The notes below the pieces were generated by a model that saw only the letters and a program-made list of their open reading frames with translations, did no database searches and was not told the DNA's origin. The position numbers and the translations under genes are program-made. 23,547 nucleotides of DNA, from the IMG/VR virus record IMGVR_UViG_3300038652_000237, positions 1-23,547 of that record; one strand, 5' to 3'. This document shows, in pieces, positions 14,411 to 23,383 of this stretch (within the stretch, counting starts at the first letter, position 1; each line of letters opens with the position of its first letter). The stretch comes from a virus.

Positions 14411-15312
14411 TGGCGCAGACAAGCAAAGTTTCTGGCATCGTTCAGATCGACGGCACACCCGCCGAGCGCACCGTTCGCGCTTTCAGCTATGACTCAATAG
14501 CGCACACCATCGACGGCGGCGAGGTCACGTTAAGCCGAAGCCTCGGCAACGCCATCAGCGACCCAGCCAATGGCCAGTACACCATCGACCTGCTGGCGGC
14601 ATACGGGCAAGAGATATTTGTTGTGGCCTTTGATGATTACGGCGACGCCTTTACCGCAGAGCAGGCGCTGACTGTTGGCGACCGCATCCACCCGACCACG
14701 CCCAACGGGCACGTCTGGGAAACCACAGGAGCGGGCACACTACCAGTCGAGGAACCAACCTGGGTAGTGGACACCGAAACCAGCCAGCTATACGGCACCG
14801 CAAGCATGATAGCCCGGCCCTTCTATCGGCCCATGGTTCACGGGCCAGTAACGCCGGAAGTGACAGGAGAGGCGGCACCGCAGGGCGTTCCTCTGTCAGA
14901 TACATGGCGCTTGTTTATTTATTCAAGCAATGGTGATCCGAGAACCGGAATCGTTGAATGGGAGCTTTATGATCTGTTTGGAGGCAGAGTACAAATTGGA
15001 TCGGAGTCAGCATCTTCAGAATACTCAGAAATGTACGCCGCAGACCTGGCAAACGACGGCGATCAAGGAACGTTATGGCTGTCAACATCCAATGCTGACG
15101 AGTGGCTAAGGTTTAGCGCCCCTGCCGGGGGACCAGTAAAACTGGGATCAATGAAGATCCGGGCGGCGGGTGGTTCCAATGGCTCAGAACTCGCCCCTTT
15201 AGAGTTCGCGCTGGAATATATTGACCCTAATACGAATGGTTTTGTAGAGCATAAGCGATGGACAGAGACTAACTGGCAACCGCTAGAAATCAGGACATTT
15301 AGTTTGGAATGA
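14410..15312 (+). CDS. Probable receptor-binding tail protein
   Basis: This 300-residue protein appears modular. Residues 1-85 form a carboxypeptidase-regulatory/Ig-like beta domain (VSGIVQIDGTPAERTVRAF, GQYTIDLLA, FVVAFDDYGD). The middle is Pro-rich (PTTPNGHVWETTGAGTLPVE). Residues about 185-300 look like a discoidin (F5/8 type C) carbohydrate-binding domain: SSEYSEMYAADLANDGD, TLWLSTSNADEWLRF and a W-R-x-E-like end. That C-terminal part is AT-rich: 26 of 60 bases are G or C in 14941-15000 and again in 15241-15300, against 40 of 60 in 15541-15600. A recently acquired host-recognition domain is the likely explanation. Gene overlaps the next by 4 bases. Receptor binding is inferred from domain type and position. 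Confidence 0.65.
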   Translation: MAQTSKVSGIVQIDGTPAERTVRAFSYDSIAHTIDGGEVTLSRSLGNAISDPANGQYTIDLLAAYGQEIFVVAFDDYGDAFTAEQALTVGDRIHPTTPNGHVWETTGAGTLPVEEPTWVVDTETSQLYGTASMIARPFYRPMVHGPVTPEVTGEAAPQGVPLSDTWRLFIYSSNGDPRTGIVEWELYDLFGGRVQIGSESASSEYSEMYAADLANDGDQGTLWLSTSNADEWLRFSAPAGGPVKLGSMKIRAAGGSNGSELAPLEFALEYIDPNTNGFVEHKRWTETNWQPLEIRTFSLE

Positions 15313-17360
15313 CCTACGCTCCCGAAACCAACCCGCTGGCGGTTGTCCTTGATCTGGGGCAGCCCTACGCCCCGATCCTCGACCCGCTGGCGGTTGTCCT
15401 TGATCTGGGGCAGCCCTACGCCCCGATCCTCGACCCGCTGGCGGTTGTCCTTGATCTGGGGCAGCCCTACGCCCCGATCCTCGACCCGCTGGCGGTTGTC
15501 CTTGATCTGGGGCAGCCCTACGCCCCGATCCTCGACCCGCTGGCGGTCGACTTCGACCTGGCGGCCGTCGACGTTGGCTTCGTTTTCCGAAAGCCGCCGC
15601 TTGCGATCACCTACGGACACCGCAGCGAGCAGGCCAGCATCAAAGGCGTCGGCGCCTGGGCCCTGGATTTCAAGGAGGCCCCGGACAAGACCCCCCCAGG
15701 CAGGGAGCACCAGACGAACCAGGCGCGCGCGCTCACCCTGCCAGGCTACGCCAAGCCCTGGAACCGCGTCGCACCCAAGGACGACCGCGACCGGATACAC
15801 CAGGGCGATAACGCCGACCCGCTGAGGCTACGCGCCGAAGCCGTTGCCTGGAACCAGAACACGCCGCGCGACAGATTCGGCATCCACCCCTGGGGCGCGC
15901 CGGACCCGAAAGACCAGAACGAGCTGCAGGGATTCAACGTCCCGCCGACGCACGACGTCGCGACCCGACTGAGCGCATCCGATAGCGTCCTGAACTGGCA
16001 GCCGCCGCCACCGGTCGCCGTCGAAACCGAGCAAGGCGACACCCTGAATTTATTGTTCAGCCCGTACACGCCGCCCGGTTTCGCCGCCGTCGACTTCGAG
16101 CTGGTACCCGAGGCCCTGTTAGTTGTCGTGGTACCGCCGACCCGCAGCGTCGACGCCCAACAGAACACGCCGGCCTGGTCGCTGAAAGCGGCCCTCGACG
16201 GCCGCACCATCCACCCCTGGGACCGCAAGCCGCGCCTGGGCACTGAGGTCGAATTCCCCAGCGCCGCCGAACCAAACGCGCCGATCGACGAAGGCCCGGC
16301 GGAGCCCGAGAACAAAAGGACGTATTTGATTATGAACGCCAGCAGCCTGATCGAAGTCACCAGCGGCCTGCCGCTCGACTTCAAAGACCTGAGCATCGCC
16401 CTGGACGCCGACAGCTTCGCCTGGACCATGAGCGCGACGATCCTGAACCGCGCCAGCATGGATCAGATACGACCCGGCGCCGACGGCCCGGCCGAAGTCG
16501 AGGCCACCATTAACGGCCACATCTGGCGCTTCGTGATCGAAAGTTACCGCCTGGATCGATCGTTTGCCCGGGAGACGTACAAGGTCAGCGGCGCATCGAG
16601 AACGCAGCTCCTGGCCGCACCCTACGCCCCGAGAACCACCGGGCGCATCGAGAGCCAGCTCAACGCCTACCAGGTAATGAGCCAGCGCCTGCAGTTCACC
16701 GGATTTAGCGTCACCCGCCAGGCCGGCCTGAGCGACTACATCATCCCGGCCGACGCCTGGGGATGGGACGACAAGACCGCGATGGAAGTCATCGCCGAGC
16801 TCGCCGCCGCCCAGGGCGCCATTGTGGTACCGGACAAGGAAACCGACGAGCTGCATATCCGCCACCGCTACAAGCTGGCCGGCCCCTGGATTTATGACGA
16901 CCAGCCGATCACCTTTGTCGATGCCATTCTTCAGGACACGATGATCGTCAGCTACGCCAGCCAGTGGGAGCCGAACCCGGACTATAACGCCGTGTTTGTT
17001 TCCGGCATCACCGCCGGCGTCGCCACCGACGTCACCGTCCAGGGCACTGCCGGCGACAAGCCCGCGCCCGATATCTTCGACGATCTGAACGTCGAGGCCT
17101 TCCAGTGTCGCGAGCGAGGCATGACAGCGATCGCCGCCGGCGGGAACCAGGAGATCGTGACCATCGACACCGTCCTGCCCACCAGCGGGAGCCCCGGCCT
17201 GATCGAGCCCGGCAAGGTCATTGAGTACCGCGACACCCAGGCGCCCGCAAACACCTGGCGCGGCAACGTCCTAAGCACCAGCATCACCCTGGGCAAGCCC
17301 GGCACCGGGAAAGTCATCCAAACACTAAAGGTAGAGAGGCACCACTATGGCAACGGTTAA
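15309..17360 (+). CDS. Tail hub protein with repeat-bearing N-terminal extension
   Basis: This 683-residue protein appears to be a fusion. Residues about 342-683 match the gp27-like tail hub pattern: ASSLIEVTSGLPLDFKDLSI, then ATINGHIWRFVIESYRLDR, YKVSGASRTQLLAAPYAPR, a helix with AMEVIAELAAAQGAIVV, and a final part ending RGNVLSTSITLG. The first 341 residues are an unusual extension: four identical 17-residue repeats (residues 9-76, PLAVVLDLGQPYAPILD) followed by Trp/Pro-rich segments with degenerate IH(P/Q)(W/G) motifs. An internal ATG at 16332, after AAGGA, coincides with the start of the hub part and may be an ancestral or alternative start. Hub proteins form the trimeric centre of the tail tip. 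It overlaps the small gene that follows by 14 bases. Confidence 0.75.
   Translation: MTYAPETNPLAVVLDLGQPYAPILDPLAVVLDLGQPYAPILDPLAVVLDLGQPYAPILDPLAVVLDLGQPYAPILDPLAVDFDLAAVDVGFVFRKPPLAITYGHRSEQASIKGVGAWALDFKEAPDKTPPGREHQTNQARALTLPGYAKPWNRVAPKDDRDRIHQGDNADPLRLRAEAVAWNQNTPRDRFGIHPWGAPDPKDQNELQGFNVPPTHDVATRLSASDSVLNWQPPPPVAVETEQGDTLNLLFSPYTPPGFAAVDFELVPEALLVVVVPPTRSVDAQQNTPAWSLKAALDGRTIHPWDRKPRLGTEVEFPSAAEPNAPIDEGPAEPENKRTYLIMNASSLIEVTSGLPLDFKDLSIALDADSFAWTMSATILNRASMDQIRPGADGPAEVEATINGHIWRFVIESYRLDRSFARETYKVSGASRTQLLAAPYAPRTTGRIESQLNAYQVMSQRLQFTGFSVTRQAGLSDYIIPADAWGWDDKTAMEVIAELAAAQGAIVVPDKETDELHIRHRYKLAGPWIYDDQPITFVDAILQDTMIVSYASQWEPNPDYNAVFVSGITAGVATDVTVQGTAGDKPAPDIFDDLNVEAFQCRERGMTAIAAGGNQEIVTIDTVLPTSGSPGLIEPGKVIEYRDTQAPANTWRGNVLSTSITLGKPGTGKVIQTLKVERHHYGNG
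15331..15546 (+). repeat. 51-bp perfect tandem repeat, four copies plus a partial
   Basis: Identical 51-bp units start at 15331, 15382, 15433 and 15484, with a partial fifth at 15535-15546. They are in frame and each encodes 17 residues. Each unit carries an inverted repeat: GATC-T-GGGGC and GCCCC-GATC around an 8-base loop (15351-15377 in the first). Identity at every base, including silent positions, indicates recent expansion or an assembly effect. Confidence 0.97.
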
Positions 17361-22469: not shown

Positions 22470-22994
22470 ATGGCCAGAGGCGTCAATAAAGTTATTCTGA
22501 TAGGCAACCTGGGCACCGACCCAGACGTCCGATACACCGCCGCCGGCAATGCCGTGGTGAACGTCAACCTAGCCACCGACGAGAGCTACAAGGACCGCAC
22601 CAGCGGGCAACTGGTCGACAAAACCGAATGGCACCGGATTGTGATCTTCGGCAAGATCGCGGAGATCGCCGCCCAATACCTGAAAAAAGGCGCAAAGGTT
22701 TATTTTGAAGGCAAGCTGCAGACCCGGAAGTGGCAGGATCAGAGCGGGCAGGACCGGTACAGCACCGAAGTGGTGATCGACATCACCGGCACCATGCAGA
22801 TGCTGGACAGTCCAGGTGATCGGCCCCAGGGCAACGCACAGCCGCAACAGCAACAACCGCAAGGCCAACGCCAGGGCCAAGCCAGTCAGCCAGCGCAGGG
22901 AGCTGCACAAGCCCAGCAGCCCACCGGCAGCAATATGCCAGAACCCATCGACGACTTCGACGACGACATACCTTTTAATTCTGTCCCTCACTGA
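22470..22994 (+). CDS. ssb: Single-stranded DNA-binding protein with extended C-tip
   Basis: This 174-residue protein is a typical SSB. The OB fold (1-110) includes [69 protein letters not shown] and [17 protein letters not shown] Gln/Pro-rich linker follows, then the acidic tip DDFDDDIPF. Normal SSBs end at this Phe; here NSVPH follows (residues 170-174). A -1 shift at TTTT (22973-22976) would read TAA at 22976-22978 and end the protein at IPF. AAGGAG precedes ATG 22470. It should coat single-stranded DNA made by replication and the exonuclease. The tip normally recruits host repair and replication proteins. Confidence 0.95.
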
Positions 22995-23021
22995 TCCCCG
23001 GGACAGTAAACGTAGGGGATC
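22981..23021 (+). other. Predicted H-type RNA pseudoknot at the ssb stop
   Basis: Two interleaved perfect 7-bp helices: CTGTCCC (22981-22987) with GGGACAG (23000-23006), and GATCCCC (22993-22999) with GGGGATC (23015-23021). Loop 1 is 5 bases, helices abut directly, loop 3 is 8 bases. The ssb stop (22992-22994) lies inside. A T-run ending at 22976 is 4 bases upstream. It could stimulate -1 shifting, or one stem could act as a weak terminator (TTT follows). Confidence 0.6.
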
Positions 23022-23041
23022 TTTCGTCAAGTGAAAACCGG

Positions 23042-23066
23042 CTGCCTGGTATATCAAACCGGGCAG
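23042..23066 (+). other. Stable hairpin downstream of ssb
   Basis: CTGCCTGGT (23042-23050) pairs with ACCGGGCAG (23058-23066), one G-U pair, over a 7-base loop. No T-run follows. It might slow transcription or protect RNA ends before the next small genes; the function is inferred. Confidence 0.45.
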
Positions 23067-23110
23067 TCATGCCATAATCCCAGAACCAAACACCGACCGA
23101 GGAACGGCAC

Positions 23111-23383
23111 ATGAAGGTAAATCCCAAGCAGTTAATCTGCCAGGCCACCGTTACAAGCTGGCACGAAGAGAATCTGATAGAGCAGAAGCCGCACAGGCCA
23201 CGAACACCGATTAACCTAAGCTACCCTACCAACACGACTAGAAGGCCCGCACAGGGCATTGGAGAACGATATGAGCAATCCAGATTGGACAGAAGCACCG
23301 GACGACGCAACGCATTGGGACACGGTTGCAGCAGTTTGGTGCAAGCACCTATATTTTTGGTGCTACGGGCGCTGGAATTATGA
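23111..23383 (+). CDS. Doubtful small ORF
   Basis: This 90-residue ORF has ATG 23111 with GAGGAA upstream, which is a good start signal. The product is basic and shows no family features. Its final 113 bases overlap the well-supported gene that starts at 23271, in another frame, so the true protein might be shorter or absent. A second frame through 23113-23203 reads more naturally (RYKLARRESDRAEAAQATNTD, then stop), suggesting a frameshift or a different coding frame. Uncertain. Confidence 0.3.
   Translation: MKVNPKQLICQATVTSWHEENLIEQKPHRPRTPINLSYPTNTTRRPAQGIGERYEQSRLDRSTGRRNALGHGCSSLVQAPIFLVLRALEL

Follow-up and report, generated by a model that had tools for sequence, protein, structure and literature searches.

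The 3' end of a phage ssb gene, located in an IMG/VR contig of 23,547 nt (IMGVR_UViG_3300038652_000237, analysed over its whole length and referred to here as the window), combines a run of four T, a stop codon in the -1 frame directly behind the last codon of the canonical SSB tip DDDIPF and an H-type pseudoknot. The same design is found in about 100 phage SSB-type gene ends, which code DDDIPF as ..CCT TTT RRN such that a -1 slip on TTTT leads to TAA, TAG or TGA after Phe, and in most of them an RNA helix, often part of an H-type pseudoknot with compensatory changes, begins exactly 6 nt after TTTT. Judged from these sequence comparisons, programmed -1 frameshifting at the ssb 3' end, yielding a tip-exposed and a tip-masked SSB, is a moderately probable reading of this arrangement.

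The ssb gene end of the window and its pseudoknot

The window encodes a normal SSB domain (PF00436, Pfam SSB, E 9.7e-38), and the zero-frame 3' end of its gene reads GAC GAC GAC ATA CCT TTT AAT TCT GTC CCT CAC TGA (Table 1). In E. coli SSB, the binding of partners needs a free C-terminal Phe. The canonical bacterial SSB tail, with the zero frame ending at DDDIPF, is not present in the window, where five further residues follow, while a -1 shift on TTTT indeed meets TAA right after Phe, as the earlier note had claimed. Relatives with AATTAA behind the T-run have a zero-frame stop TAA at the place where the window has TCT instead. Among the relatives, 152 unique SSB ends have the tip DDDIPF, and the gene stops there in 113 of them. 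The other 39, or roughly one in four phage-type SSB genes of the sample, run past it, with short recurring extensions such as APLHHLVGA and DNPYRRLWRIV, which would mask the SSB tip permanently.

Both helices of the two-helix H-type pseudoknot (7+7 bp) were found exactly where the earlier note had placed them, with loops L1, L2 and L3 of 5, 0 and 8 nt, respectively. No other perfect H-type pseudoknot of 7+7 bp exists in the window (the other strand shows its mirror), and 40 shuffles of the window gave only 1 such structure in total (0.025 per window). When only nested pairs are allowed, the RNA fold of the region is unremarkable (z -1.05), because both helices cannot form in a nested fold. No match to Rfam 15 covariance models was obtained for 22700-23300 at E up to 5. 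A helix start 4 bases downstream of the T-run, as initially proposed, is true for the window, but the spacing conserved in the family is 6 nt to the GTCCC core at 22983, the shorter distance being due to two extra pairs in S1 of the window.

Table 1. Features at the 3' end of the ssb gene in the window
Feature	Position	Strand	Basis
ssb gene, zero frame, OB-fold SSB	22470..22994	+	ORF; Pfam SSB
Canonical SSB tip DDDIPF, codons GAC GAC GAC ATA CCT TTT	22959..22976	+	sequence; same tip in relatives
Proposed slip run U_UUU within A_CCU_UUU (TTTT)	22973..22976	+	4-T run with -1 stop in ~100 relatives
TAA in the -1 frame, immediately 3' of the Phe codon	22976..22978	+	sequence
6-nt spacer AATTCT	22977..22982	+	comparison with relatives
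Zero-frame C-terminal extension NSVPH, proposed to mask the Phe carboxylate	22977..22991	+	ORF; differs in every lineage
57-nt module replacing 2 nt (TA) of L002/L003, net +55 nt	22977..23033	+	comparison of near-identical contigs
Pseudoknot S1, 5' arm CTGTCCC	22981..22987	+	perfect 7 bp; family covariation
Zero-frame stop TGA of ssb	22992-22994	+	ORF
Pseudoknot S2, 5' arm GATCCCC	22993..22999	+	perfect 7 bp; family covariation
Pseudoknot S1, 3' arm GGGACAG	23000..23006	+	perfect 7 bp with CTGTCCC
Pseudoknot loop L3 TAAACGTA, A-rich, family-conserved	23007..23014	+	comparison with relatives
Pseudoknot S2, 3' arm GGGGATC	23015..23021	+	HNH Shine-Dalgarno in HNH-bearing relatives
GTG at the position of the L241 HNH start codon, possible relic	23031..23033	+	opens a 27-codon frame only

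A family of gene ends with a helix at a fixed distance

The family was gathered from close HNH relatives and from scans for DDDIPF coded with CCTTTT; the structure survey covers CCTTTT ends in depth and those that use different codons for Phe or Pro less deeply. In one relative, L009, whose SSB is about 60% identical, the corresponding region reads CCTTTTAGCGAT-GTCCC-TTAT-TCGCC-GGGAC-AGTAAACATA-GGCGA, with the same place and the same loop as in the window, an S2 that is changed yet paired, and a -1 frame stop that is TAG. In L121 and in Escherichia phage ECOO78 (L241), CCTTTTAATTAA precedes a longer version of the structure, behind which an HNH endonuclease ORF lies.

A stem energy of <= -6 at +6 was obtained for 29/39 HNH-less 4-T ends with a -1 stop (mean -8.6), HNH-less status being defined by a motif search within 260 nt so that a few are truncated or divergent HNH genes (e.g. 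L445, L457, L533), as compared to 11/101 of the five-T canonical ends used as control (mean about -3.2; Fisher 6e-13). Helix-start profiles, used in place of the too noisy RNAfold first-pair statistics, peak sharply at +6 after TTTT. Strict H-type pseudoknots at this position number 16 in the 4-T set, 1 among the 101 five-T controls and 0-1 in shuffles. Across 20 pseudoknots S2 pairs with its own partner at 99/100 positions (mean 55 and maximum 70 when partners are swapped) and double changes occur at every tested S1 and S2 position; these 20 were picked for pairing, the unbiased part being the position peak and the shuffles.

The -1 stop is associated with the helix. The final CCTTTT scan demanded such a stop, and the association was hence measured only on loci fetched without that demand: among 42 unselected 4-T ends, TAA, TAG or TGA follows Phe in the -1 frame in 32/33 with a +6 helix and in 1/9 without it (Fisher 7e-7). 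A zero-frame stop lies one codon later in 25 of the 33 helix ends, and 7 of the 8 others keep the -1 stop. Such retention after loss of the immediate zero-frame stop is seen in the window, L009, L330, L393, L103 and L389. At the same time, zero-frame extensions vary freely (N, S, D, R, NSVPH, SDVPYSPGQ, SNAPSA, DYGR), and apart from the -1 stop and the +6 helix the sequence beyond Phe in 4-T ends is not conserved. The -1 product is thus the likely target of selection; as a point against this, TAA/TAG/TGA can in part be put down to A to G transitions. As to the earlier proposal of a programmed slip giving two SSB forms, the joint occurrence of T-run, -1 stop and RNA at a fixed 6 nt in about 100 ends of several SSB families favours it. 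However, NSVPH is not conserved, and the comparison of homologues likewise reveals conserved T-run and helices but an extension that differs by lineage.

Carriers of the module include OB-fold SSB (PF00436), DUF669 and other PHROG SSB families, their independence resting on SSB family assignments. In bacteria the pattern is rare (395 genomes of Enterobacterales) or nearly absent (399 genomes of Pseudomonas), and hence the form is mainly viral. A DNA-level search of phages with the module of the window returned tip-codon matches only and led to ECOO78 and Vibrio phages. Vibrio phage 41E34.2 (MW824394) is a cultured phage that has the module without HNH. Matches of the pattern CCGGGACNGNAAACRTAGG in L237-L239 were discarded as chance, being sited inside other genes.

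Slip site and codon usage

Z_ZZN constitutes a minimal -1 slip site, with a usual spacer of 5-9 nt to the stimulatory structure (PMC5009743). U_UUU permits re-pairing of Phe-tRNA in this minimal form, and the conserved S1 core, lying 6 nt behind TTTT, falls within that range. The A_CCU_UUU of the window is no classical tandem slippery heptamer, in agreement with the earlier note, since the tandem C_CCU_UUU is possible only with ATC as the Ile codon, which is used in 41/102 four-T ends and not in the window. Tandem slippage at C_CCU_UUU was rejected as a general rule, ATA being as common as ATC. Before CCT TTT, ATA is over-represented (48/102 four-T vs 26/101 five-T ends) and ATT is depleted (9 four-T vs 44 five-T ends), and this excess of ATA over ATT speaks against frameshifting, as it is not what better re-pairing of Pro-tRNA predicts. 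An endonuclease target or a pause at a rare codon are conceivable causes of the ATA excess in four-T ends.

Near-identical alleles without the module

Two contigs, L002 and L003, are near-identical to the window around the module (ssb 98.4-98.6%, upstream 99%, just downstream 95%) and their ssb genes end canonically at DDDIPF (IPF*). They read CCG TTC TAA AAACC, as compared to CCT TTT, the 57-nt module and AAAACC in the window, and with flanks this similar the module amounts to a discrete unit that was gained or lost. An endonuclease ORF is absent after the module in the window, where only a 27-codon frame starts from the GTG at 23031. The ORF at 23111-23383 begins like an intact ORF of L002 (MKVNPKQLI..) and diverges after about 10 codons, and the gene downstream of the module so appears rearranged or broken. 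Between the two, an imperfect inverted repeat CCGGCTGCCTGG..ACCGGGCAG followed by TGCCATAATC (23038-23066) recurs further on in L002; it resembles a repeated intergenic element that includes a promoter-like -10. Elsewhere in the window, the large ORF 15309-17360 contains four head-to-tail copies of the protein repeat VVLDLGQPYAPILDPLA at 15343-15550.

Linkage to an HNH endonuclease and alternative explanations

A mobile HNH endonuclease (phrog_2340) that invades SSB 3' ends is linked to the module. HNH genes of this family stand beside the module in L121 and L241 (E 1e-40), and in eighty loci found by the HNH protein the HNH gene nearly always comes right after a gene with an SSB-like tip. In L121, L241 and L246 the Shine-Dalgarno sequence of HNH is formed by the S2 3' arm, and in another class of leaders 26/26 have an 8-nt arm at +6 that pairs with the region of the HNH start codon (mean pairs 7.92 with its own partner vs 6.76 when swapped). 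Many leaders also have a promoter-like sequence between the arms, as read by eye. HNH-bearing relatives thus exhibit a structure over the Shine-Dalgarno sequence or start codon, of the kind by which the RBS of homing endonucleases is sequestered.

Several observations concern the wider distribution of this endonuclease. In Escherichia phage Alux-21 (L578 560-720, L242), an HNH gene with a pseudoknot leader lies between tail genes, far from ssb, and the ssb gene of this phage ends in IPFNSKGKNAV, resembling a fusion to the HNH C-terminus, an apparent relocation of the cassette together with a deletion relic. A further class of SSB tails in cultured phages (L573, L574, L575, L577, L579, L580) has a fixed 15-residue extension, IPF-APIGLQY....IHxI*, with the ssb gene end abutting or overlapping the same HNH family, so that HNH invasion may have left its mark in many of the extensions of phage SSB; the fixed extension of these HNH-invaded genes also implies that a free tip is not indispensable, a point against the frameshift reading. 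Members of phrog_2340 are labelled 'baseplate wedge protein' in several GenBank records (matches of L078/L088; Alux-21, Vibrio and others), which is probably a misannotation. A kinship of the HNH protein to PacI, whose site TTAATTAA occurs at some junctions, was dropped, as no PDB sequence matched.

In HNH-bearing relatives the HNH start site lies under the same RNA, which speaks against frameshifting, and together with the Alux-21 leader, which accompanies its HNH gene far from ssb, this means that HNH control may explain the RNA. The pseudoknot would then be a translation-control leader of the HNH cassette, with the window copy a relic after HNH loss: transcripts reading through from ssb would hide the HNH RBS or start, transcripts from a cassette promoter without the 5' arm would be translated as in T4 I-TevI, and the T-run with its -1 stop would be the 5' junction of the cassette, fixed by descent or as endonuclease immunity. 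The pairing with HNH start regions, the promoter-like sequences and the T4 precedent (PMC2988022) all favour such a leader, and some HNH-less copies of the module may be recent relics. This main rival is nevertheless the less likely reading, because HNH-less genomes with diverse SSB families keep compact +6 pseudoknots away from a start codon (L330, L366, L469, L243) and because it leaves unexplained why the -1 stop is retained after loss of the zero-frame stop. Moreover, an RNA serving HNH alone should track HNH; however, among HNH-found loci the +6 helix occurs in 24/25 with 4-T and a -1 stop vs only 3/23 with a canonical stop, the latter corresponding to the shuffled level, which points to a role on the ssb side, HNH clade and 4-T state being confounded in this comparison. 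L1 measures 1-5 nt in HNH-less pseudoknots vs mostly 12-26 nt with HNH (p 0.0008), as if the short forms had been kept after loss of the HNH promoter. We think that the module RNA has or had both roles, for ssb and for HNH, and in the cassette it probably also controls HNH translation.

It is very improbable that one T was lost from CCTTTTTAA next to a chance pseudoknot without function: 4-T and 5-T ends do lie one T apart and 5-T canonical ends are common, but about 100 gene ends repeat the pattern with fixed spacing and compensatory changes, a recurrence that also makes the simple one-base loss from a TTTTT run, raised as the rival in the earlier note, an unlikely full explanation. Equally remote is a stability or termination element of the ssb mRNA 3' end to which the tip frame is irrelevant; this would suit the location of the RNA and the plain strong hairpins of some members (L408, L466), but most have no following U-run, the spacing is fixed to TTTT rather than to the zero-frame stop, which moves, and the +6 helix is associated with the -1 stop.

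Proposed mechanism and known systems

In the favoured reading of programmed -1 frameshifting, a ribosome whose P site contains CCU and whose A site contains UUU would meet the pseudoknot 6 nt ahead, and tRNA-Phe would re-pair one base back on U_UUU by single-tRNA slippage. The next codon would then be UAA, so that the product ends in ...DDDIPF-COOH, the canonical tip, while non-slipping ribosomes would add NSVPH and stop at TGA, the tip Phe no longer being the C-terminus. The phage would hence make a mix of tip-exposed and tip-masked SSB, giving mixed tetramers. The module itself would have been the 5' leader of an incoming mobile HNH cassette that targets the SSB tip codons, and in the window the HNH gene would have gone with the compact pseudoknot kept. 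We infer the slip, its efficiency and its effect on SSB partners from the arrangement of the gene ends.

The nearest parallel is E. coli dnaX (tau/gamma), in which a -1 slip also meets a stop at once and gives two forms of a replication protein, with an RNA stimulator on the 3' side. However, dnaX uses the tandem heptamer A_AAA_AAG and its slip removes a large domain (see also PMC5009743), whereas the ssb ends have a U_UUU run and an H-type pseudoknot, and the two forms would differ by 1 to about 9 residues that mask or unmask a binding tip. In the leaders of T4 I-TevI and segB and of Aeh1 mobE, RNA on read-through transcripts covers the endonuclease start site (PMC2988022). The module RNA would likewise form on read-through transcripts over an endonuclease start, but unlike these leaders it is often a pseudoknot exactly 6 nt behind the T-run of an SSB tip and is kept without the endonuclease. 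The HNH proteins of L121 and L241 belong to the phrog_2340 endonucleases, whose homing is putative; the window has no HNH at its module. As with group I introns or the T4 gene 60-type bypass element, the latter linked to a homing endonuclease, a small insertion occupies a conserved coding site; in contrast to these, the module has no Rfam match and needs no landing codon, because stops follow in both frames. No reports of ssb frameshifting were found in the open-access papers searched, and the 2016 frameshifting review has no ssb match; with respect to the open-access literature, the combination of T-run and +6 RNA at ssb appears to be previously undescribed.

Biological significance

The cassette recurs in many phages, and near-isogenic alleles without it exist (L002, L003). 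A broader scenario can be put forward only tentatively, at somewhat less than even confidence: homing endonucleases may have carried a small recoding cassette into the tip codons of phage SSB genes that belong to several unrelated families, with a pseudoknot that sets the tip ratio by -1 frameshifting and also gates endonuclease translation, and phages that lose HNH may keep the signal. SSB recruits partner proteins through its C-terminal tip. If frameshifting holds true, making a set fraction of the phage SSB with a free tip, or without one, would be a simple way to control which repair and replication proteins gain access to phage DNA, and mixed-tail SSB tetramers would arise naturally. The RNA leader of a selfish gene would thereby have become a recoding signal for its host gene.
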